A DNA stretch of 38,809 nucleotides from a virus, in IMG/VR virus record IMGVR_UViG_3300022657_000051, positions 1-38,809 of that record. One strand, 5' to 3'. The translations under genes were made by a program, and so were the position numbers. The notes beneath the pieces were generated by a model. That model ran no database searches and was not told where the DNA came from. It saw nothing but the letters and a program-made list of their open reading frames with translations. Shown here piece by piece: positions 930 through 31,059 of this stretch. Every line of letters begins with the position of its first letter. Within the stretch, counting starts at the first letter, position 1.

Positions 930-2291
930 TCAGGCTGTAAAAGCTCGGTCGTAGCTCAAGATCGGAATCACGCGCTTGGTGGCCACTTCAGGAACCCCAC
1001 GTACTTCTCCGAAGATGTCTTTTCGGTCATTACGAAAATCGCCATCGATATAAAAAGGAATGCAGCCGGTCAGGTATTCAATAGCAGCGGCCAGAAACGG
1101 CAAGTTGTCCGAGTAGGCGACGTCGCAGCTAGCGTCCCAAAACTTGCCTTCTAGGAACATGCAGGAGCCCTTGCACAGTTGCAGCACCGGGCAGCTCGCA
1201 CAGTCTTTGCGCTTACTCCAATGAGTGGAGGTGCGCATCTTTACAGCCTGTAGGTTTGACAAACGGCCGATGCCGTGCGGCTGGCCATTTGGTGCGGTTG
1301 CGGTGGCGCTCACGTTCTGACAAGTCAAAACGTTACCATGCAAGTCCACTGCGATGTTGTCGGCCTTATCCATTCCACACTTCTGGCCAAGAGCAGATGC
1401 AGGGCGCACAGTGCGAATCGACTGCACGAAGTCCATGATCTTTTGCTGCCCGATGCTGAAGCTCGCAACTGTGCCCAGGCGCAGCTCCTTGTAGGCCATG
1501 GCGCGGAAGCCAATGTGATCGGCAGGCGTCTGTAATATCGAGGCAAGGCCGCCGTCGTCATATGGATCAATGAATGAGCCCTCGCCAATGCGGACATCCT
1601 GGCCAAAGCGTTCTTGCAGCCATACCTGGACGTGTGCGCGGCTGCGGTTATCAGCGTGCAGCATGGCATTGACGCTGATGCGGCCTTGTGGATGCAGGCG
1701 GGCATACAGGTCCATGATGGCCGCGCGCTTTTCGGGATCGTCGAGTGGGTCCGCGCCGCGTGCGTGATAGCCAGGGCCGTCGTGCGACAGGCCGACACCA
1801 AACCCCATGCGGTCCAGCCATTCGTTCTTCTCAGTGTCCAGAAGGCTACCGTTGGTGATGATGCTGAAGTTGGCTTGTGGGTAGAGCTGGCGCAAGCGCT
1901 CGGCCAAGGGCTTAAGCGTCTTCCAGTACACGAACGGTTCGCCACCCCAGAACTCGATGCGCTCCGGCGGCTCGATCATGGCGTCCATGAGTTGAGCGAC
2001 AAATGGCTCGATGTCGTCCGGGTTGCTGGACTCAGCGTGTGGCACAAAGCGCTGGCTGCAATAGCTGCACTCGTAGTTGCACGAGAGGCCCAGGCTGACC
2101 TTGAGCGTGCGGATGCTGCCCTTTCGACCAGGCTGATCGACGGACACTGCCGCCGCATCACGGTAGGAGCTGGGCTTGGCTTGCACCACAGGCTTGCCGT
2201 CATCCCAGTTCAGGGCAGAAGTTTGATTGTCGTAGTGCAGACGGACTTTCTGGCCGTCCTGGCGGAGTGCGTAGATAGTGAAGGCGGTCAT
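930..2291 (-). CDS. Radical SAM/SPASM domain maturase
   Basis: A 453-aa radical S-adenosylmethionine enzyme. The SAM-cluster motif CNYECSYC (C71, C75, C78; CX3CX2C) is followed by GGEPF at 116-120 and ITNGSLLD at 145-152, as expected of the partial TIM barrel. The C-terminal part holds a full SPASM signature: C305, a 13-residue gap, GX4C ending at C324, then C364-X2-C367-X5-C373-X3-C377 and a final C389. Such enzymes mostly modify ribosomal peptides or proteins (PqqE, AlbA, anSME and relatives). The start at 2291 is chosen because the upstream oxygenase stop overlaps it as TGATG; the longer frame to 2402 would run into the oxygenase gene. It sits last in the fibre, 307-aa, oxygenase operon, so the likely substrate is a neighbouring virion protein. 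No sulfatase is nearby, so an anSME role is unlikely. Family confident; substrate inferred. Confidence 0.9.
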   Translation of the reverse strand: MTAFTIYALRQDGQKVRLHYDNQTSALNWDDGKPVVQAKPSSYRDAAAVSVDQPGRKGSIRTLKVSLGLSCNYECSYCSQRFVPHAESSNPDDIEPFVAQLMDAMIEPPERIEFWGGEPFVYWKTLKPLAERLRQLYPQANFSIITNGSLLDTEKNEWLDRMGFGVGLSHDGPGYHARGADPLDDPEKRAAIMDLYARLHPQGRISVNAMLHADNRSRAHVQVWLQERFGQDVRIGEGSFIDPYDDGGLASILQTPADHIGFRAMAYKELRLGTVASFSIGQQKIMDFVQSIRTVRPASALGQKCGMDKADNIAVDLHGNVLTCQNVSATATAPNGQPHGIGRLSNLQAVKMRTSTHWSKRKDCASCPVLQLCKGSCMFLEGKFWDASCDVAYSDNLPFLAAAIEYLTGCIPFYIDGDFRNDRKDIFGEVRGVPEVATKRVIPILSYDRAFTA

Positions 2292-2977
2292 CAGAACCTC
2301 ATTTCTTTGTGAAGCTCGATATAGCTGTGGCTGACGATTTGAAGGTTCGCAACGATGCAGACGCGCGTGCCTTCGCCACGGTAGGGATTTGTTTCGTGCC
2401 AAACATAAGCTGGGTGAATGATGGTTTTACCGGTGTAAGGCGGGATCGAGACCACCTTCTCCCAGTACGGGTAGTTCACTGCGCCACGAGGGTCTTGCAG
2501 CAACAGGGCGTGCGTGCCGTGGCGGTACGACTTGCCAAGCTCGGGGTCGTTGTGGTCCGGGATGTCCAGGTAATGAATCAGGACGTGATCCACGGACTGG
2601 TGATAGTGCGGAAAGGTGCGTCCGCCTGATGTCTGCACATTGCCAAAGCACCGCCCTGCGATCGTCAGCTCATCGGCCTGCTCGATGTTGAGCGCGAGGC
2701 GCAGGTAGTCCCGATACGCATTGCACACGATCTGCTCAAACGCGACGATGGCGTTTTTCTCGGGATGCTTGTGCGCCTCGGCGAACAGGTTGTAGTGGGT
2801 CGACGCGTAGAACTGCTTGGACTGCATGAACTTGAAGAAGTCCGGCGAGTTTTCGGCGAGCTTTTCGCGGTCCTCCTCCTTGCGCAGCAAGACGGAAATG
2901 AGCTGCTGGCGCATTTCCTTGGGCAGGTCAAGATCGAACTCCGCGATGGGAGTAACCCAGTGGTTGGTGATCTTCAT
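2291..2977 (-). CDS. 2-oxoglutarate/Fe(II)-dependent oxygenase
   Basis: A 228-aa protein with the pattern of the putative 2OG-Fe(II) oxygenases of the PF13759 type. It shows a proximal histidine pair in FPHYHQS (H124, H126), a beta strand HVLIHYLDIP, an LLLQDPRG segment near 158-165, and a distal motif HPAYVWHETNPYRGEGTRV. There H194 is the likely third-position iron ligand and R205 the likely 2OG-binding arginine. I cannot fix the acidic ligand (D130 is a candidate). Known relatives hydroxylate amino-acid side chains or small molecules. The ATG overlaps the stop of the preceding gene (ATGA) and its own stop overlaps the radical SAM start (TGATG), so the two enzymes should be made in step. 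Action on the fibre tail, for example Asn hydroxylation, is inference. Confidence 0.8.
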   Translation of the reverse strand: MKITNHWVTPIAEFDLDLPKEMRQQLISVLLRKEEDREKLAENSPDFFKFMQSKQFYASTHYNLFAEAHKHPEKNAIVAFEQIVCNAYRDYLRLALNIEQADELTIAGRCFGNVQTSGGRTFPHYHQSVDHVLIHYLDIPDHNDPELGKSYRHGTHALLLQDPRGAVNYPYWEKVVSIPPYTGKTIIHPAYVWHETNPYRGEGTRVCIVANLQIVSHSYIELHKEMRF

Positions 2978-3897
2978 GCGACCACCTCAAAGGGCACGTC
3001 TAACATGCCGCTGAAGTTGCGCAAGCCGACCTTCACCTTGAAGGCGTCACCAGCCTGGAGGCCAAGCGCGCCCACCTTGAACGTGGCCAAACCGCCAACG
3101 GTCTGCACTCGCTTCATCGGAAGATAGCCGCCGGTCTCTTCCAAGTACAAGTTGGTGTCCTTGCCTTCATCGCTTGCAAGGCGGACCGTCACTTCGGCGT
3201 ATCTGTTGGATGCAACCTGACCGCCACCACTGACCAGTTCCACGGCCGGAAACGCCTGATCTAAGTCGGACAGGTAGTTGTAGTCGCTCGCCTCAACAAA
3301 GCCATCGATGTTGCTTTTGTACCCCAGGGAAAGGTTGTATTTGAGGGTCATGCTGCACTGAGTCAGCGGTGTGCTCGCAAAGGGTTGGTAGATGAAAAGA
3401 TTGCTGGGTGTCCCCAGGTTTCTGACCGAGCGCATCGGGTGCATCTTGGTGGACGTTTCAAAAGCAATCGCGTTATAAAACGGGCGTAGGTTGCCTTCAT
3501 AGTCCACGCCGCACACCCAGACCGTAGCGTCGGATTTTTCTCCGCTACGGATGGACGGATCATCCAGGTCCAGCAAAGAATATGAAGCTGCCTTAAAGTA
3601 ACGCCCTGCCAAATTTGGTGCAAGTGATTCACCCCTAATCAAAGGCTTTCCCAATTGCACATAGGGAAGTCGGTCGTGGTACACCCCAGTCACCTTGGGC
3701 GGTAATTGACCTGGCACGAAATGCCCTTCAAAGCGCAGTGACCGGATGCTTTCGGATTGATCGTCACCCGGATCAGCATCGGCCTCAAAGATGTGCTTCT
3801 CAATTTCTGTGTAGGCGGTCAGGCAGACAATCCGTTCGGTGACCACCAGGTCCAGGAAAACTGGATATGACATGCTGGATACAGCTTTGCGGAACAT
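2974..3897 (-). CDS. Unknown tail-operon protein, probable virion component
   Basis: I do not recognise this 307-aa protein. It is rich in short beta-type segments. The last 90 residues (from about 215) look like an Ig-like or small beta-sandwich domain with alternating hydrophobic pattern and a final LDVPFEVVA strand, as is common in tail-tip proteins. The start at 3897 is well supported: AGGAGG lies five bases upstream and its first base is inside the fibre stop codon, so translation is coupled to the fibre. The next ATG in frame (residue 9) lacks such a site. It could be a fibre-associated structural protein, an adaptor presenting the fibre tail to the two downstream enzymes, or a second substrate. 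No catalytic motif is visible. Confidence 0.7.
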   Translation of the reverse strand: MFRKAVSSMSYPVFLDLVVTERIVCLTAYTEIEKHIFEADADPGDDQSESIRSLRFEGHFVPGQLPPKVTGVYHDRLPYVQLGKPLIRGESLAPNLAGRYFKAASYSLLDLDDPSIRSGEKSDATVWVCGVDYEGNLRPFYNAIAFETSTKMHPMRSVRNLGTPSNLFIYQPFASTPLTQCSMTLKYNLSLGYKSNIDGFVEASDYNYLSDLDQAFPAVELVSGGGQVASNRYAEVTVRLASDEGKDTNLYLEETGGYLPMKRVQTVGGLATFKVGALGLQAGDAFKVKVGLRNFSGMLDVPFEVVA

Positions 3898-3906
3898 TGG
3901 TGCCTC

Positions 3907-4887
3907 CTAGCAATTGCACTGACAGTTGCAGTTGCAGTTTGTGTAATACCGAACCATTCGATGAGAAATCTGGCCACCGTTGTCCATGAGTTCGTGGTTG
4001 ATGAGGTAATGCGGACCACTGCCATAACAGTTGATGACGTTTTCTTCACCCAATTGAAAGGCCGTGGGGCTTCCCGAGGTCACCTTGGAGCTGATCGGGC
4101 GAACACAGTTGCCAACGGATGAAAAGAAGTAGTCGTGCAACCAGCCGTAGTTGGCAGTCCACAAGGAGCCGCCGTTGTTCATGTACATGTCCCAGTTACC
4201 GTCGGTCTTTAAAAATCCCATTAGGTTGCTGTTGACGTGCAGGTAACGGGTGCTGCCCTGGTCTGTGTCGTAAAAGTCGATCGTGGGGGATGTGCTTTGC
4301 ACGGTCTGACTGGGCAGCGTCAGGCGCCCGCTCATGCTGTCGCCTGTGCGGGCCACGCGTCCTGACAAATCGATGCTGACGGTGGCATTGCCATTGGCAT
4401 CTGGTCCGCCGCCATTGACCGAACGCACGAATGCTGTTGAGTCATAACCGTCCAGCCGATCGGAATCCGTTGCCTTGGCGCTGATCCCCAAGTAGGCCGA
4501 GTTGTGGTTATGCGATGCCGAAGCGAATGCACTTGCTTGCTGGCCATCGAGCAAGTCTGCATCAAGTCCAGACCCTGAGCCATCCACTGTGAGTAGCTTG
4601 GCCAGAACGTCCGCAGCGGTGTACGCAGCGGCATTGAGCTTGGCCGCAAACTGGGCATCGATCCCACTAGCCAGGTCCATGATGAAGCGCCAGTTATCGG
4701 GATTGGTGCCGATCAGCTGGTAGAGCTTGAGCTGGTCTGTGCGGTAGCACAGCATGCCCACTTGCTGGTTGGTCGTCGGAAACGTGGTACCGCTATTGCA
4801 GGAGATCGCCGTCTTGTCGTTGTTCAGGATCTCAATTAGTGAGTCAGACAACGTGCGCGACGATGGGATGTCGGTGAAGTTTTGCAT
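3907..4887 (-). CDS. Tail fibre-like protein with Cys-Asn C-terminal tail
   Basis: A 326-aa receptor-binding or tail-fibre protein. It has the DxLDGxxxxxF repeats common in fibres (LDADLLDGQQASAF at 108-121 and DSDRLDGYDSTAF at 141-153), a TGDSMSGRLTLP motif at 181-192, and a C-terminal region with GWLHDYF and YLINHEL. The last ten residues alternate Asn or Gln with Cys (C318, C320, C322, C324, C326), and Cys is the final residue. Four further cysteines lie at C30, C47, C261 and C287. Fibres of this type are trimers, so the tip would present 15 closely spaced thiols. AAGG upstream of the ATG at 4887 gives a reasonable ribosome site. The repeats support the fibre call; the role of the Cys tail is discussed as a finding. 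Confidence 0.82.
   Translation of the reverse strand: MQNFTDIPSSRTLSDSLIEILNNDKTAISCNSGTTFPTTNQQVGMLCYRTDQLKLYQLIGTNPDNWRFIMDLASGIDAQFAAKLNAAAYTAADVLAKLLTVDGSGSGLDADLLDGQQASAFASASHNHNSAYLGISAKATDSDRLDGYDSTAFVRSVNGGGPDANGNATVSIDLSGRVARTGDSMSGRLTLPSQTVQSTSPTIDFYDTDQGSTRYLHVNSNLMGFLKTDGNWDMYMNNGGSLWTANYGWLHDYFFSSVGNCVRPISSKVTSGSPTAFQLGEENVINCYGSGPHYLINHELMDNGGQISHRMVRYYTNCNCNCQCNC
3910..3939 (-). other. (Asn/Gln-Cys)x5 C-terminal tail codons
   Basis: The last ten sense codons of the fibre gene read Asn-Cys three times, then Gln-Cys and Asn-Cys, and are followed at once by TAG. Both Cys codons and both Asn codons are used, so this is not just a perfect DNA repeat. The stop codon overlaps the AGGAGG site of the next gene. 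It is a candidate peptide substrate or a metal/disulfide tip; see findings. Confidence 0.85.
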
Positions 4888-6792: not shown

Positions 6793-9700
6793 CTAGTACA
6801 GACGCAGACTGGTAAAGGCTCCGATTGGCGCAAGCGCCGAACTGGCTGACTCCACATCACCCCCCATCCGACCGACAAAAAGCCGTCGCTCGATGGCGGT
6901 CTGGCACACGCCGATGCAAACGCGGTCCGTAACCGAGACCCCAAAAGGCACGCTCACTCGCCTGGACAGTTGGTCTTCGAGAAAGAACGCACCCGTCGTG
7001 GCGTCAAAGCCCACTAGAAGCGATCCTGCGGGGCCAAGAGCCGCCCAGATCACGCAGGTTGTGACCTCTGACGGTATGAACCAAAAGGAGGTGTGAAACA
7101 CCGATGGGATGCTCACCGTCCAAGCCACGCGGGTGGTGTCTTTGACCATCAGACCGTCGCCATATCGGCCGGCGGCATAGGCGACGCCTGCCGCCTGGCT
7201 TGAGACTGGATTGCCTAGCCCCGCGGTAGAACCGTTCAGACGCCATCCATAGATCTCACCGGCTTGCAGCGCATCTTCTCTGGCGATCTGGAAGCGGGCA
7301 TCCACGTTGGCGATCGCGCCGTCATAGGCCCACTGGCGCCTGGCAGCATCGCTGCTCCATGGGAAATTCGCCTCCAGCCATGTGGTCCGGTCATCAACTG
7401 AGGCCCCGAGGCTGTTGAGCAGCGTGTTCTGGGCGCGGATGGGTGAAACAAGATCCACCTCAAAGAGGTACTCAGCCGTCTGTGCACCGGTGCTCATACG
7501 CAGGGCGTTTCGACCGTTGACCGAGACGACCGAAGCGAAGTGCTTAGTGCCAGGGAATCCCAGCGCCTGCTCATCACGTGCCAAGATCAAATTGGCGTTC
7601 TGCGGCTGAGCAACCACCGTCGACACAAAGGTCGGCGTGTCACTGTAGATGCCTGGGGACGCAATCGCCTTGATCCAAAACTTGCGCTCTCCATCAAACC
7701 CTGAGGGCAGCGTGTAGCTGGTGGACTTGACCTCAGCCACAAAGAGCGAGGCATCCCAGGCCGCGCCCTCACGAAGCTCATACCCGACAACTTCGGGTTC
7801 AGGATTGGGCTGCCACCGAAACTCTAGCCGGTTGGCCGACTGAACCACATCGAACTGACGCACGGTCGAGGGCGCTTGTAGGCTCAGCACAAAGGTTGTG
7901 ACGTGGGCGCTGTAATTGCCCGAAGTGTCGTAGGCCCGAATGTGATACGGGTAAAGGCCAGCCGCGCTCTGGTCGTGGACCATCTGCGTGCCCGCGGTTT
8001 TGGCGACCAACTGGCCGTTATCCCAGCCAGTTCCTACACGGACCTCGTAGCCCGAAAGGTCTGCATCTTGGAGTTCATCCCAAGAAATCAGCAGATCGGA
8101 GACTCGGCGCTGGACCGAAAAGCCCGTGACATCCGACGGCGGCAGGGTCTTGCCCAGAACCGTTGTGCTCAGTGTCGCAGGAACACTCTCCTTGCGCGTG
8201 ATCCCGATCGCACGCAGGCTGAATTCATACGCGCCTTCTTGCGCATCCCGGATTTCGACGTAGTTGGCACTGGTGAGCGGAAGGCTCACGAAGTTGCCGC
8301 CTGCCACCCGGTAGGACAGTCGGTAAGCGACTGCGGTCTGCACCTCGTTCCAGGACACCTGAACCAGCACCTGGGCCTGGTCTTTGACACGGTACAGACT
8401 CTCTTGCATGAAGAGCCCAGTCGGTGCCGGTGGCATATCCGACAGGACGGTGATCGAGCGGGGCTGCAATGCCAGCCCTTTTTCAATCGCATCGAACTTA
8501 CTCGGGTTGTGAGCGAGTGCGGTGACTTCGTGCACCCCAGGATCCCGCTCGGCGACCGCTACCACCCGAAAGAGTTGCGGCTCGATGATGGACGAGGAAA
8601 GCACCCAAATGGCACCAGCCTGCGGCGCCGCACTGAATGGGATCGTCACCGTCAGGGCTCGACCCGAAATCGGACCTACCAGCCGCTCCTCAACCAACCC
8701 AGTGGGCAGAATGACCGATAGCCTCCATGGGAGATCCGCTGGCAGGTCCTGATCCAAAGTGACCGTGCTGGCAGTTGCCGCAGCGATTCGGCCCCCAAGG
8801 CGCATGCCGCCTCGAACTGGATCAGCGACCTTGATGACGTCACCCGGACGCACCACGGCACCCTCCAGGCCCGTGCGGAAGGTGACGATCTCGGATTCCG
8901 ACTGCTCGGAATACAAGAGCCACTTACCCACGCGGTGAGCCTGGCCCCTTGAGGTACATCCCAGCGCCGCGACTTCGCTTTGCACGATGCCGTAGCGGGC
9001 GATGCCGGCGGCGTCCTCGACGTACTCCACCTTCTGGCGGTAAAAGTCTTCGGGGTCGTTCCATGTGACCAAGGCCACCGTGTGCCGCGCCTTCGCCGAA
9101 GACCCCTGGTAGGCAAATTCGCCATCCACGACATTGCTGGGGGCAAACTGGTAGACCGGATCAGCGGGTGCATCCTGCGTGACCGTGATCGCGCCACCGG
9201 ACCAATACACCATGCCCCGAAAGATCGAGGCCATGTCCTGCACGACCTTATAGGCCTGCTCCCGCGTCTGGAGGTACAGGTTGCAAGTAAAGCGCGGCTC
9301 AACCCCCCCCAGCCCGTTTGGAACCAACTGGTCGCAGTATTGGGCCACCCGGTAGAGCGCCCACTTGTCGACTTGGGCCTCAGGGATGTAGCCACCCAAG
9401 CCATAGCGGGTGCTGGTCACCAGGTCGTAAAAGCACCAAGCAGGGTTATCGGTCCAGGCGATCTTGAAAGTGCCATTCCACACACCGCTGTAAGCGCGCG
9501 TTGCTGGGTCGTAGTTCACGGGAACACGAACCCGCAGCAACTTCATGTCATAGCTGCGCCGCGGGATGCTCGAGAACTGGGACGCATCGACGCGAAGCGC
9601 TACCAGGGCACTGTTGGGGTAGCGCAGCTTGCTCTCGATGACCTCGGTGTAGGACTCCACAAAGGTCTTGTTCAGAATCGCACTTGAGGTCGAGTCCGCC

Positions 9701-10308
9701 GTGATCCGGCGCACGCGGATATCCCAGGGGCCACTGCCCGCAAGCGGCACGTAGTAGCTGCGTTGGTACTTGGTCGTAGTCTTACCAGAGATCGTGTCGT
9801 TGATCATCTCCACGAACCCACCTCCGTTCACTTGGCGATCGATCGCAAAGTTCACCGTACTGCCATTGAGATCGCCATTGGTCGTGTCCTGGTTGGTCAA
9901 CTGCGGCACGCTCACCTTGACCCGAACGGCATCAACATCCGGGTCGGTGATGGAGCGCACCACCGGCTGGCTCGCCTTGACCTCTACGCCGACGACTACC
10001 TCGTTCTCAACGGACGAGAATCCGGGCAAATAGCTTTGCTGCTGGCTGCCGTTGCGGGTCTCCAGAGTGACGCCTGAGAAATTGGTCGAGCCATCAGGGT
10101 TCTGAATGGGCGTGTCGTCCAGGTAAACCGATTGCAGGCCGTCGACCAGCCCCTCGATCTCACCCTCGGAAATGAGGTCAACCACTCGCGCATAGGCTTT
10201 GGAACGCAGGCTGTCGGGCGCCTCTTGTGCCACACGGGCGCTTCCTCCACCGCCTTTGCCACCACCGCCCGCACCAATGATGAGTTTGGTGACGTTGAAT
10301 CTACTCAT
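6793..10308 (-). CDS. J: Tail tip / host-specificity protein TipJ (lambda gpJ-like)
   Basis: An 1171-aa central tail-tip protein that closes the tail tube and carries fibre or receptor-binding domains. The N-terminus has the typical Gly-rich stretch and the conserved EAPDSLRSKAYARVVDLISE and GEIEGLVDGLQSVYLDDT segments of the gpJ family. Phage tail-hub domains follow to about residue 600, and then two to three fibronectin-III-like domains (about 640-900, with the SWDELQDADLSGYEVR-type signature). The last 250 residues form a concanavalin/LamG-like region (FHTSFWFIPSEV, TTGAFFLEDQLSRR). The start overlaps the TipI stop (ATGA). Length matches lambda gpJ (1132 aa). Confidence 0.95.
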   Translation of the reverse strand: MSRFNVTKLIIGAGGGGKGGGGSARVAQEAPDSLRSKAYARVVDLISEGEIEGLVDGLQSVYLDDTPIQNPDGSTNFSGVTLETRNGSQQQSYLPGFSSVENEVVVGVEVKASQPVVRSITDPDVDAVRVKVSVPQLTNQDTTNGDLNGSTVNFAIDRQVNGGGFVEMINDTISGKTTTKYQRSYYVPLAGSGPWDIRVRRITADSTSSAILNKTFVESYTEVIESKLRYPNSALVALRVDASQFSSIPRRSYDMKLLRVRVPVNYDPATRAYSGVWNGTFKIAWTDNPAWCFYDLVTSTRYGLGGYIPEAQVDKWALYRVAQYCDQLVPNGLGGVEPRFTCNLYLQTREQAYKVVQDMASIFRGMVYWSGGAITVTQDAPADPVYQFAPSNVVDGEFAYQGSSAKARHTVALVTWNDPEDFYRQKVEYVEDAAGIARYGIVQSEVAALGCTSRGQAHRVGKWLLYSEQSESEIVTFRTGLEGAVVRPGDVIKVADPVRGGMRLGGRIAAATASTVTLDQDLPADLPWRLSVILPTGLVEERLVGPISGRALTVTIPFSAAPQAGAIWVLSSSIIEPQLFRVVAVAERDPGVHEVTALAHNPSKFDAIEKGLALQPRSITVLSDMPPAPTGLFMQESLYRVKDQAQVLVQVSWNEVQTAVAYRLSYRVAGGNFVSLPLTSANYVEIRDAQEGAYEFSLRAIGITRKESVPATLSTTVLGKTLPPSDVTGFSVQRRVSDLLISWDELQDADLSGYEVRVGTGWDNGQLVAKTAGTQMVHDQSAAGLYPYHIRAYDTSGNYSAHVTTFVLSLQAPSTVRQFDVVQSANRLEFRWQPNPEPEVVGYELREGAAWDASLFVAEVKSTSYTLPSGFDGERKFWIKAIASPGIYSDTPTFVSTVVAQPQNANLILARDEQALGFPGTKHFASVVSVNGRNALRMSTGAQTAEYLFEVDLVSPIRAQNTLLNSLGASVDDRTTWLEANFPWSSDAARRQWAYDGAIANVDARFQIAREDALQAGEIYGWRLNGSTAGLGNPVSSQAAGVAYAAGRYGDGLMVKDTTRVAWTVSIPSVFHTSFWFIPSEVTTCVIWAALGPAGSLLVGFDATTGAFFLEDQLSRRVSVPFGVSVTDRVCIGVCQTAIERRLFVGRMGGDVESASSALAPIGAFTSLRLY

Positions 10309-22351: not shown

Positions 22352-24070
22352 TCAGAGCACCATCAACTCATAGTCGGATCCGAGCACCACCGAGTCCCCC
22401 GGTTTGATCGCCCTTGAGAGAGCCATGATCAGTGCAACGATACCGTCTATCTTGTTTTCTGCTCGCTCCTTGCGTGGATAGATGTTGTCTTTGACGTCCA
22501 GATGCGCCACCACGTTGCTGGCCATCCAGGCCAATACCGGGTCGCCGTCATGGACGAGCTTCTTTTGCAGGACCAAGGCTTCAAGCGTCTTCATCGGTTC
22601 GCTGAAATTCAGCACCGTGGGGCGCACCTCGATCATGGGCAGGCCCTCGGCCAGCATCCGGGTCGAGAGCTGCGTGGCCTGGAATGGGTCGAAGGCCACC
22701 GCTTGAATCTCGTAACGGGTTGCCATGTCCAGCAAATCCGACTCGATCCAGCCAAAGTCGATTACGTTGCCCGGGGTGACGATGAGCCGCCCCGAATGCA
22801 TCCAGCCGCCGTACTGGCTGTTGCCTGCGCCGTTGACCGTGTCCTCGGGCAGGTAGTACTTGCCAAAGGTCACGTAGGCGTCCGAAATCTCAGGATGCCG
22901 GAACACCGCTACCAAGGCAGCAATGTCAGTCTTACTGGCCAGGTCCAGGCCAATCCAGCAGGGCTGGTCTTCGAATTGCTCAATGAAAATCTCGTGCTCG
23001 GTACAGGCATCCCAGTAACGCATGTCCATCCAGGCCGTGTCGGCGTTCACCCATTCATTGAGGTGTTTGGTCTTGAAGTTGTTGACGGCGCTGGGCAGTT
23101 GCATGGCTTTGGCCTGCAGCGGCCCGAGCACCTCGGACCTCACCGAAATGCCCCAGTTGGGGTTGGCCTTGATGAGTGATTCTTCAGTTGTCCAGTCATC
23201 CCCATCATCAAGCCCGTAGATGATCCCGAACTGGGTGTCATCCTCGAAGACGCCATCAAGCAGCTTGGTCACGAAGGAGCGGACCTCGTAGCAGATGCCA
23301 GCGCGGTTGCTACCCGCCGTGGTGATGACCCACAAGAGCGAGTTGTCCCGCTTGCCGGTTCCGGTTTCGACCACGTCGTACACCGTACGGGTCTTGTGCG
23401 CATGCAGTTCGTCGATGCAACCAAAGTGAATGTTCAGACCGTCCAGCGTGGAGCCCTCGGCTGAGAGTGCTTCAAACTTTGACCCAGACGACAACACGTT
23501 CATGTTGTGCGCCCCGACGTTTACCGAAAACCGGTTGCGAAACCCCGGGCTGCGGCGCGCCATGGTCTGGGCATCACCAAACACGATGCGAGCCTGGTCA
23601 CGGGTGGTGGCCAGCGAATACACCTCGGCACCTCCCTCACCATCGGCAGCCAACATGTACAGGCCTACCGCAGACGACAGGGTGGACTTGGCATTGCCTC
23701 GTGGAACCTCGATGTATGAGCGGCGAAAGCGTCGCGTCCCATCGGCCTTGACCCATCCGAAAACCGTCGTGAGGATGAACACCTGCCACGGCTCCAGCGT
23801 GATGGGCTCTCCCGCAAGCGGCCCCTTGACGTGCGGCAGCCGCTCAATAAAAGCGCACAGATTGTCCGCCGGGTAGTAGGTCTTGCCGCTCCTGCTTGTG
23901 AGCTTGGGATTGAACCGGTAGGGACTGGTCTTGCCCTTGTACTTCTTCAGATCACTGAGCTGCCTCTGGCAGGCCGCCTTGACCCACTTGCACGCGAGAA
24001 TCTCTCCGGCCACGACCCTCTCTGCGTACATCTTGGCAATGTCCGCATAAGAATTACGACCTGATTGCAT
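22352..24070 (-). CDS. Terminase large subunit (HK97-type)
   Basis: A 572-aa DNA-packaging motor. The ATPase part has a Walker A-like PRGNAKST (123-130) and Walker B FGCIDE (216-221). The nuclease part has acidic residues in WIGLDLASKTD (about 381-391) and VAFDPF (about 463-468). The N-terminus (SYADIAKMYAERVVAGEILA) matches the family start. No strong ribosome site precedes the ATG. The gene is cut off from the small subunit by 3 kb of foreign-looking DNA, so its transcription must come from read-through or from a promoter I could not identify. Confidence 0.95.
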   Translation of the reverse strand: MQSGRNSYADIAKMYAERVVAGEILACKWVKAACQRQLSDLKKYKGKTSPYRFNPKLTSRSGKTYYPADNLCAFIERLPHVKGPLAGEPITLEPWQVFILTTVFGWVKADGTRRFRRSYIEVPRGNAKSTLSSAVGLYMLAADGEGGAEVYSLATTRDQARIVFGDAQTMARRSPGFRNRFSVNVGAHNMNVLSSGSKFEALSAEGSTLDGLNIHFGCIDELHAHKTRTVYDVVETGTGKRDNSLLWVITTAGSNRAGICYEVRSFVTKLLDGVFEDDTQFGIIYGLDDGDDWTTEESLIKANPNWGISVRSEVLGPLQAKAMQLPSAVNNFKTKHLNEWVNADTAWMDMRYWDACTEHEIFIEQFEDQPCWIGLDLASKTDIAALVAVFRHPEISDAYVTFGKYYLPEDTVNGAGNSQYGGWMHSGRLIVTPGNVIDFGWIESDLLDMATRYEIQAVAFDPFQATQLSTRMLAEGLPMIEVRPTVLNFSEPMKTLEALVLQKKLVHDGDPVLAWMASNVVAHLDVKDNIYPRKERAENKIDGIVALIMALSRAIKPGDSVVLGSDYELMVL

Positions 24071-27129: not shown

Positions 27130-27591
27130 CTAACCGGCGATATCGGACCAAGGGTCCATCTCATCATCCGCAGCCTCCATAGGCAAGGTGACTCTCGATC
27201 TCGATGCGGGAGTGAACCCCATCTCCGTGGCCGCTTTGGTCATGATTTGCGCTTGTTTGTTAGCAATCGCTAGATAAGGCGACTGCATTGGTACGCCGGT
27301 GTTTGGAGCTTTGACGAGTAACCCTGTTTTTGCGATGCCCGATTGAGCCTTTCGGTAAAGGTCTGCAGCACATGCCCAGACCTCAAGCACCGACATGTCC
27401 AACTTCTTGAGCAGATTGGGCGGTGCGCACTCAAGCGCATATCTCCAAGCAGCCTTTGCCCCATCGGGCATGTAATCAGGTGGTTCAACCAAGTCGCCAA
27501 TTGGCTTTGGTTCGCGCAAATTCGTTCGGCACTTTTGAAGCGTGCCTTTGATTTGCTTAACTTTGGTGGGTAGCGGTTTTCGACCGGCCAT
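27130..27591 (-). CDS. Terminase small subunit, P27 family
   Basis: A 153-aa DNA-recognition subunit of the packaging enzyme. The N-terminus MAGRKPLPTKVKQIKGT is typical of the P27 family, and LVEPPDYMPDGAKAAWRYAL and LLVKAPNTGVPMQSPYLAIA (about 92-111) are conserved. The ATG at 27591 gives the family start; the frame to 27639 would add unrelated residues. A short G/C hairpin (27606-27617) lies upstream of the start. The gene is normally adjacent to the large subunit; here it is separated by 3 kb. Confidence 0.92.
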   Translation of the reverse strand: MAGRKPLPTKVKQIKGTLQKCRTNLREPKPIGDLVEPPDYMPDGAKAAWRYALECAPPNLLKKLDMSVLEVWACAADLYRKAQSGIAKTGLLVKAPNTGVPMQSPYLAIANKQAQIMTKAATEMGFTPASRSRVTLPMEAADDEMDPWSDIAG

Positions 27592-27701
27592 AAATATCCA
27601 TCTCTGGGGGAGCCCCCCTAGTTCAATTTGCACGCGCAAAAATTTGAGCAGGCGCGCGCATCTGTGGCGCCATCCTGTAGAGATTCACCCCCCCTACCCC
27701 C

Positions 27702-29515: not shown

Positions 29516-29770
29516 ATGGCAGCCATCAACACCACCACGCAAATCGAAAACAACTACGACCGATTCATCACCGAGCTGACCGCCCTGACCCGCAAATACG
29601 GGGTGGCCATCCAGTCGGTGGGCGGCGTGTACCTGGCAGATGAGCGGGGCGATTTTGACAAGGTCACTTACAACGCCGACATAACCAGCGGCGACCTGTA
29701 TCCGAATTCCCGGGAAACTGAGATCAGGCACCTTGCACCGCAGGGACCTCTTGAACCGGTGCATCAATAG
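29516..29770 (+). CDS. Small conserved phage protein
   Basis: An 84-aa protein with ENNYDRFITELTALTRKYGV and AIQSVGGVYLADE, followed by KVTYNADITSGDLYPN, a pattern I associate with small uncharacterised proteins of betaproteobacterial phages. AAGGAG lies eight bases before the ATG. The last 16 codons overlap, tail to tail, the end of the methyltransferase gene, so the true conserved part may end near DLYPN and the rest be an extension. Confidence 0.62.
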   Translation: MAAINTTTQIENNYDRFITELTALTRKYGVAIQSVGGVYLADERGDFDKVTYNADITSGDLYPNSRETEIRHLAPQGPLEPVHQ

Positions 29771-31001
29771 CAATGGAGGTCAGCTCGACGAACTTCACGC
29801 CATCGCCCTCACGCACCGCCTGCTGGCCGGTGTATTCCTCCCATCGTTTGACGATCACATCCGCGAACTTGGGGTCCAGCTCGATGAGGCGGGCCTGTCG
29901 TCCGGTCTTCTCGCAAGCGATCAGAGTGGTACCCGAGCCACCAAAGAGGTCTAAAACGATGTCTCGGCTCTTGGATGAATTTTTGATGGCTCGCTCGACC
30001 AGCTCAACCGGTTTCATAGTCGGGTGCAGGTCATTGACCCGAGGCTTGTTGTAATTCCAGATATCCGACTGATCGCGGTCACCACACCAGAAGTGATCAA
30101 CGCCTTGTTTCCATCCGTACAGGATGGGTTCGTACTGACGTTGATAGTCCGATCGGCCAAGGGTGAAAGTGTTCTTGGCCCAGATGATGAAAGTAGACCA
30201 TTTGCCGCCTGCATCAATCCATGCTTTTTGTAGCGTGTGCAGTTCTGAGGAGCTCATGCAGACGTAGCAGGCTCCTTTGGTCACCACCAGCAAGTTAAGG
30301 CAGGCGTCGTACAGAAATTGGTAGAAGCCGTCGCCCAAGGCGTCGTTGAGGATACGTCGATCTTTGCCCCGCATCTTGTCCTTGGCGCTGTTGCCATAGT
30401 CCACGTTGTAGGGCGGATCGGTGAATGCCATGTCCGCGAGTTGCCCACCCATGAGGCGTTCTACATCTGACAAGACCGTTGAGTCGCCACACAGGAGGCG
30501 GTGGTTGCCGAGAATCCACAAGTCCCCAGTTCTGGATACGGGATCTACTGGTGCTTCTGGGATTGCATCATCTTCGGTCAAACCACCGCCTACTTGATCA
30601 CCATTTAGCAGGCGCTCAATCTCATCGTCCCCAAAGCCGAGCAAGTCGAGATCAAAATCCACGCCTTGAAGCTCTTGCAATTCGAGCTTGAGTAACTCTT
30701 CATCCCAACCCGAGTTCAACGCGATTCGGTTGTCGGCCAGGATGTAGGCCTTCTTTTGTTCAGGGCTCAGATGGCCCAGCTCAATGACGGGCACCTCTGT
30801 TAATTCAAGTTTTCTGGCAGCAGCCAAACGGCCGTGGCCAGCGATCACGCCCTTGTCGCCGTCAGTCAAGATTGGATTGGTCCAACCGAACTCACGAATG
30901 CTGGCAGCGATCTGGGCGATTTGTTCTTCACTGTGGGTGCGGGCGTTTCGCGCATACGGGATGAGCGAATCGACCGGGACCATTTGGATCTCGGGTTTCA
31001 T
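29724..31001 (-). CDS. ParB-domain DNA methyltransferase
   Basis: A 425-aa fusion. Residues about 5-100 are a ParB/Srx-like domain (MVPVDSLIPYARNARTHSEE; GVIAGHGRLAAARKL at 51-65). The C-terminal part is an adenine-N6/cytosine-N4 methyltransferase with motif IV DPPY at 195-198 and the SAM-binding motif DLFGGSGTTL at 351-360, the order of the beta class. It probably protects phage DNA or masks sites from host restriction. The ATG at 31001 is chosen because the frame above it is not conserved-looking. No restriction endonuclease partner is nearby. Confidence 0.9.
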   Translation of the reverse strand: MKPEIQMVPVDSLIPYARNARTHSEEQIAQIAASIREFGWTNPILTDGDKGVIAGHGRLAAARKLELTEVPVIELGHLSPEQKKAYILADNRIALNSGWDEELLKLELQELQGVDFDLDLLGFGDDEIERLLNGDQVGGGLTEDDAIPEAPVDPVSRTGDLWILGNHRLLCGDSTVLSDVERLMGGQLADMAFTDPPYNVDYGNSAKDKMRGKDRRILNDALGDGFYQFLYDACLNLLVVTKGACYVCMSSSELHTLQKAWIDAGGKWSTFIIWAKNTFTLGRSDYQRQYEPILYGWKQGVDHFWCGDRDQSDIWNYNKPRVNDLHPTMKPVELVERAIKNSSKSRDIVLDLFGGSGTTLIACEKTGRQARLIELDPKFADVIVKRWEEYTGQQAVREGDGVKFVELTSIAIDAPVQEVPAVQGA

Positions 31002-31059
31002 GAGCAAATCAGGGGAGTAGTGCTGCCCTTGATCGCAGTGAATGCGCCAACAGGAAGCA

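Follow-up and report, generated by a model that had tools for sequence, protein, structure and literature searches.

We analyzed the entire IMG/VR record IMGVR_UViG_3300022657_000051 (38,809 bases; hereafter the window), a siphovirus-type genome in which J, the tape measure, the terminase and other head-tail genes lie on the minus strand. In its tail module, a few genes beyond J, a fibre-type protein (P0004), a second protein (P0003), an Fe(II)/2-oxoglutarate (2OG) oxygenase (P0002) and a radical S-adenosylmethionine (rSAM) enzyme with a SPASM domain (P0001) form one minus-strand operon. The fibre ends in a repetitive Asn-Cys tail, and in three collections such tails and this rSAM family accompany each other almost without exception, whichever of the two the search starts from.

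The Cys-tailed fibre and the SPASM enzyme

The order after J is a 148-amino-acid (aa) protein, P0005, P0004, P0003, P0002 and P0001, followed by a glucosaminidase-type lysis gene (Table 1). An earlier reading of the window from its letters only (the sequence-only reading) had described a row of four minus-strand genes joined by overlaps or 9-base gaps, which the coordinates (930-4887) bear out. The 9-base gap between the fibre and P0003 contains GAGG, and P0003 and P0002 overlap by four bases. The P0001 gene runs from an ATG at 2291 to position 930; the 490-aa form with a TTG start that the open reading frame finder returned is an upstream extension.

Table 1. Coordinates of the cassette and of neighbouring tail genes in the window.
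Feature	Position	Strand	Description
Fibre P0004	3907-4887	(-)	326 aa; Cys tail; proposed substrate; PHROG tail fiber matches
Tail codons NCNCNCQCNC	3910-3939	(-)	read from sequence
P0003	2974-3897	(-)	307 aa; recurrent partner; Ig-like C-terminal domain, residues 216-307
Fe(II)/2OG oxygenase P0002	2291-2977	(-)	228 aa; PF13759; accessory tailoring enzyme (putative)
Radical SAM/SPASM enzyme P0001	930-2291	(-)	453 aa; PHROG family 1802; proposed maturase
P0005	4902-6254	(-)	450 aa; structural-looking; upstream neighbour of the fibre, frequently co-conserved
Central tail fibre/host specificity protein J	6793-10308	(-)	PHROG 31; context

The fibre terminates in YYTNCNCNCQCNC, with five Cys, one at every second residue, just as the sequence-only reading had it. 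Its best match to the PHROG tail fiber families has an E-value of 3.5e-10, and its position after J is also that of a fibre gene. The peptide NCNCNCQCNC recurs identically at four other loci (L004, L007, L012 and L128), and 14 different DNA sequences encode NCNCNCNC. Third codon positions are used freely throughout the tails (AAC 310 and AAT 176; TGC 402 and TGT 238). Since different phages keep the peptide but vary its codons, an origin of the tail by chance or as a DNA microsatellite or repeat is ruled out. Across the collected tails, X in the (X-Cys)n stretch is Asn in 69%, Ala in 12% and Asp in 11% of cases, with three to nine repeats, and additional Asn-Cys pairs occur in the approximately 60 residues preceding the tail in 87 out of 120 distinct tail proteins. 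Once the tail is removed, 117 tail-bearing proteins fall into six groups without mutual BLAST similarity. At one locus (L073, 8001-9356), the rSAM gene is split into three frames and the tail is altered to NCNCDRNCGC; this is perhaps a decaying locus or a sequencing error.

The identification of P0001 as a SPASM radical SAM enzyme holds. The CX3CX2C motif (C71, C75, C78), GGEP (116-119) and all seven SPASM Cys (C305, C324, C364, C367, C373, C377, C389) are invariant in 65 relatives, and the protein exceeds the cut-offs of PF04055 (32.8 bits; cut-off 29.5) and of the SPASM profile TIGR04085 (32.4 bits; cut-off 27). The predicted structure of P0001 (mean predicted local distance difference test, pLDDT, 93) has as its best solved fold match CteB, a thioether-forming maturase (5wgg; Z 24.0, root-mean-square deviation 3.9, 346 aligned residues), followed by ChlB (Z 21.9), the anaerobic sulfatase-maturating enzyme (anSME; Z 20.7) and TigE (Z 18.5), with a weaker match to EpeE (Z 13). 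A prokaryotic viperin with a role in defence was considered and ruled out, as only the rSAM core (residues 70-172) matches (50.6 bits, with a cut-off of 180) and a SPASM domain is present. In five loci (L054 6942-7958, L055, L057, L165 and L169), a second, shorter radical SAM protein of 338-362 aa is encoded directly upstream of the main one.

Co-occurrence of tail and enzyme

A search of viral contigs with P0001 yielded 72 loci, and a profile search of bacterial genomes added 80 more, many of them in genomes named Limnohabitans, Rhodoferax, Polaromonas, other Burkholderiales and Rhodobacteraceae-type bacteria; cultured bacteria with the locus include Limnohabitans and Thalassobacter stenotrophicus. 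Counts were limited to the 127 rSAM loci with at least 4.5 kb of upstream DNA. An (X-Cys)n stretch is present in 116 of them: 103 have a C-terminal tail according to a fixed rule, four have shorter tails recognized by eye (e.g., NCRCNC), seven carry a tail followed by a Hint domain and two an internal tail. The others comprise six loci of a YcaO-type clade and five without a recognized tail. After dereplication, the tail occurs in one of its forms in 63 out of 70 uncut loci. With an (X-Cys)n partner, 116 out of 127 loci show the layout of pathways for ribosomally synthesized and post-translationally modified peptides (RiPPs), in which a modifying enzyme is encoded beside its substrate and the substrates share a core motif.

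The reverse search made no use of the enzyme: viral contigs were scanned for a DNA pattern encoding N-C-N-C-[ND]-C-[ND]-C-stop. This returned 47 loci, some of which are near-copies of each other, and 44 of the records carry the same rSAM family (40 within the fetched DNA and four elsewhere in the record). The three others (L103, L107 and L111) cannot be judged for the enzyme because their contigs end shortly after the tail, by 72 bases, approximately 1.4 kb (inside the oxygenase gene) and 348 bases, respectively. A corresponding pattern in which the Cys tail runs into a Hint start matched four records, all with the rSAM. When the fibre body without its tail was used as the query, together with P0005, 94 relatives were found with both tail and rSAM and two (on one contig) with a tail-Hint arrangement and rSAM. 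No fibre relative with at least 5 kb of downstream DNA lacked the enzyme; relatives devoid of both tail and rSAM were not found either, so that this fibre-anchored comparison does not demonstrate co-loss. As a background, the rSAM occurs in five of 301 genomes (1.7%) of the Limnohabitans parvus family, accompanied by a tail in three, a tail-Hint arrangement in one and a Ramlibacter-type YcaO locus in one. The tail pattern itself matched none of these 301 genomes, including those with the rSAM, because their tails end differently; this count serves as a false-positive control only.

The sequence-only reading had placed the Cys-tailed fibre and the SPASM enzyme in one cassette, and held that related Cys-tailed fibres regularly lacking both enzymes would speak against it; for the rSAM, no such fibre was seen among relatives with at least 5 kb of downstream DNA. 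The linkage is real and far stronger than a single window could show. It extends over records ranging from siphophage-type genomes of approximately 40 kb to contigs of more than 100 kb, and the order of genes differs among them: tail, P0003, oxygenase and rSAM in the window; tail, rSAM and P0003 in L084, L085 and L110; and a tail gene directly before the rSAM in L023. As 24 of the 116 tail-bearing loci contain neither a P0003-like nor a recognized 2OG-like gene, the tail is the constant partner of the rSAM. Linkage alone does not explain this pairing, given six protein families and varied gene orders with a constant tail and enzyme, and the Cys tail is strongly indicated as the substrate of the rSAM. 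In one genome, that of Thalassobacter stenotrophicus CECT 5294, three tail-oxygenase-rSAM cassettes (L181, L182 and L207) and a fragment are present.

Accessory genes, Hint variant and RiPP-like side clade

The oxygenase had been regarded as an integral part of the cassette, which is not supported as stated. P0002 exceeds the PF13759 cut-off (38.7 bits; cut-off 27), also matches PHROG 81, and its candidate metal ligands (H124, H126 and H194) are invariant in its family; it does not reach the cut-off of TIGR02466 (28.4 versus 62.5 bits). Beside Cys-tailed fibres, the SPASM gene is nearly always found, but some 2OG-like gene occurs in only 79 of the 116 tail-bearing loci, which rules out the oxygenase as a core member. 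Moreover, these genes belong to several families (17, 3, 16 and 24) that substitute for one another, sometimes with two or three per locus. In L017 (4298-5815) and L020, two desaturase-like proteins are encoded between the 2OG-like genes and the rSAM; HxxxxH, HxxHH and HDEHH motifs were recognized by eye, with no Pfam match.

Members of the P0003 family are encoded in 75 of the 116 tail-bearing loci. In the predicted structure of P0003 (pLDDT 88.8), the C-terminal 90 or so residues are immunoglobulin-like (Ig-like), with a match to intimin (Z 11.0 over 88 residues), and full-length fold matches comprise unnamed phage proteins only; a tblastn search of named phages gave no match. P0003 is likely a structural or assembly partner. 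In its place, L025 (7303-7998) and relatives encode a 230-260-aa protein of no known family (family 5), whose gene sits immediately ahead of the rSAM in loci of the Hint type and in some others.

Most apparent exceptions without a tail carry the stretch directly before an autoprocessing Hint domain. In Achromobacter phages JWF and 2-1, B. paludis MSh1 and L070, the tail runs into a CFPAGT-type Hint start, and the arrangement is also seen in L195-L199 (in part), L208-L210 and L255. Consequently, JWF, 2-1, MSh1, L070, the Rhodospirillaceae loci and L255 no longer count as tail-less, as the tail precedes the Hint domain. In the fibre of JWF, a temperate siphovirus of Achromobacter xylosoxidans (PMC3899368), the PF05203 match (47.5 bits; cut-off 32.1) starts at residue 308, immediately after NCNCDCNCNCSC; the Hint matches of L155, L195 and L070 score below this cut-off, yet CFPAGT/CFVKGS starts are present. 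The JWF protein concerned (gp28; L002 6844-8295) was deposited as a Hint-family protein and is a fibre with a Cys tail and a Hint domain. NWKGL, considered as a new shared C-terminal motif, was dropped, since it is simply where the Hint-bearing part terminates. Mapped on the rSAM tree, the Hint label requires at least four changes, and therefore the trait changed hands more than once. Hint cleavage that leaves the Cys tail as the mature end would fit a need of these phages for a C-terminal tail.

In the same tree, the tail is found in both deep halves. Nested among the phage enzymes is a clade from Variovorax and Ramlibacter (Shimodaira-Hasegawa-like approximate likelihood ratio test 99), whose rSAM gene adjoins those for a nitroreductase-YcaO fusion and a small DCGC-containing peptide. 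Another relative (L170) adjoins a C39-peptidase ABC exporter. These two side lines make a C-x-C peptide substrate more likely for the phage enzymes as well. No leader-removal or export gene was found among the cassette genes of the window, relatives not having been surveyed systematically for such genes. The sequence-only reading, right about the linkage, had missed this sister clade of RiPP clusters, the Hint variant, the frequency of the P0003 partner and the stand-alone and tandem tails.

Elsewhere in the window, two host-type genes lie on the opposite (+) strand inside the packaging module, between the large (22352-24070) and small (27130-27639) terminase genes: a phasin (PF09361; 24234-24788) and a universal stress protein (PF00582; 25288-25725). 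A ParB-like domain is fused to an N4/N6 DNA methylase at 29724-31019 (-).

Proposed maturation of the fibre tip and known systems

We propose that the core of a virion-modifying system consists of two parts: an (X-Cys)n tail, borne by a phage protein of tail-fibre type, and a dedicated SPASM rSAM. On a freshly synthesized fibre, the enzyme would bind the flexible (Asn/Asp/Ala-Cys)n tail and modify it covalently. This covalent modification of the tail by the rSAM we consider probable; that its chemistry is thioether formation, if the tail is indeed modified, is about an even call. The likeliest products, as a first guess, would be intramolecular thioethers from Cys to neighbouring Asn, Asp or Ala carbons, and they could cap the distal end of the fibre with a compact structure that is stable to redox changes. 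Hydroxylation of this tail by a variable set of 2OG oxygenases may follow, the P0003-type protein may act as a partner, a chaperone or a second tip protein, and Hint self-cleavage would leave the tail exposed at the C-terminus of the mature protein. A role in host contact or tip stability is conceivable. Overall, we lean slightly towards the view that unrelated tailed phages took up a RiPP-type rSAM system by which the tips of their host-recognition fibres are cross-linked, with accessory oxygenases and, in some, Hint exposure; this would be a previously undescribed class of virion maturation.

Several observations weigh against this proposal. P0001 falls well short of the cut-offs for all named maturase families, including its best NCBIfam match, the PapB ranthipeptide maturase (NF047865; 57.3 versus 340 bits), QhpD (TIGR03906; 46.8 versus 453 bits) and SCIFF (TIGR03974; 30.3 versus 425 bits), and the substrate chemistry can therefore not be read from the family. 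The N-terminus of the model consists of three strands without the helices of a RiPP recognition element (RRE); the alignment with CteB spans residues 1-407. Some X positions are Gly, Arg or Tyr and, therefore, not all can be the same kind of acceptor. Five loci (L019, L150, L162, L170 and L193) have no recognized tail. Finally, the incorporation of the fibre into the virion is judged from gene position and PHROG matches, from which we regard it as moderately well founded.

Other chemistries of the same enzyme on the same tail deserve consideration. A non-thioether modification, either epimerization of alternate residues as by PoyD and EpeE or a C-C or C-O cross-link at Asn, appears unlikely. 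The strict two-residue period with Asn does recall peptides with alternating D-residues such as polytheonamide, and EpeE structures are among the fold matches of P0001, but at Z 13 versus Z 24 for CteB. Moreover, the placement of Cys at every other position calls for an explanation, and thioethers offer one; the sister clade keeps a single C-x-C only. Conversion of Cys to formylglycine, resulting in an aldehyde-bearing tip, is highly improbable. The enzyme anSMEcpe is a close match to P0001 in fold and also matches it in sequence, yet its catalytic Asp277, which sits directly after the second SPASM Cys, is replaced by Gln325, conserved in at least 90% of the relatives, and the tails do not contain the C-x-P/A-x-R motif.

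Alternatively, the tail may not be the substrate, or not belong to a virion. CxC repeats generally bind metals, metal ions are known at spike and fibre tips and all genes concerned lie in the fibre region, which would suit a metallothionein-like or disulfide-bonded tip in a joint cassette whose rSAM modifies P0003, a host target or another protein. We deem this rather improbable: the P0003 family is missing from about a third of the tail loci with the tail constant, the tail sits on six unrelated protein families in varied gene orders, the tail-Hint forms retain the rSAM and the YcaO/RiPP sister clade points to a peptide-modifying lineage. That the Cys-tailed proteins give rise to free, secreted peptides, such as a phage bacteriocin or signal, and are not virion parts is very doubtful. 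Some of them are indeed small (81-133 aa) and arranged in tandem (L036, L040 and L104), and the exporter beside the L170 enzyme would suit secretion; however, in most loci the tail terminates a protein of approximately 300-1000 aa with fibre-type parts, beside J or S74-type fibres, and Hint cleavage would leave the tail on the fibre side.

Many freshwater phages end a fibre in an Asn-Cys tail with the rSAM gene nearly always adjacent, and the host-contacting tip is probably hardened or decorated as a result. Such rSAM chemistry is so far known from peptide natural products. If our proposal of a maturase acting on the fibre tail is right, radical SAM peptide chemistry also serves virus assembly, and many environmental phages encode a maturase that is naturally paired with a simple, repetitive substrate. 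The modification would be tractable and bring its own tag, the C-terminal Asn-Cys repeat, and might offer a new route to harden or functionalize the receptor-binding tips of phages. It would also assign a function to PHROG 1802, now annotated merely as a radical SAM protein.

No description of a Cys-tail/rSAM system was found in the literature searched, which did not extend to preprints and most subscription papers, so that a prior description is possible. The closest known systems are CteB/SCIFF and the ranthi- and sactipeptide maturases such as PapB, which share the rSAM core, the seven-Cys SPASM domain and a Cys-rich substrate encoded next door. PapB links Cys to Asp or Glu by a thioether (PMC9413430). 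P0001 differs from these enzymes in sequence (14-18% identity, scores below the family cut-offs), in the lack of full RRE helices in its model and in its proposed substrate, a large fibre with a C-terminal Cys stretch instead of a short precursor. The Variovorax and Ramlibacter clusters resemble the phage loci in an rSAM nested within the phage clade and a precursor-like C-x-C peptide; unlike them, they are chromosomal, encode a cyclodehydratase (PF02624, 150 bits) and have neither an (N-C)n tail nor a fibre. Phage 2OG-Fe(II) oxygenases (PHROG 81, PF13759), which P0002 matches, are here tied to Cys-tailed fibres and replaceable. For thioether cross-links in a true protein subunit, QhpD provides a precedent, albeit with a different, non-viral substrate. 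Phage-encoded modification of own virion proteins is, likewise, known from glycosylation in some mycobacteriophages, in which phage genes act on the phage's own virion as proposed here, with other enzymes, another chemistry and no Cys tail.

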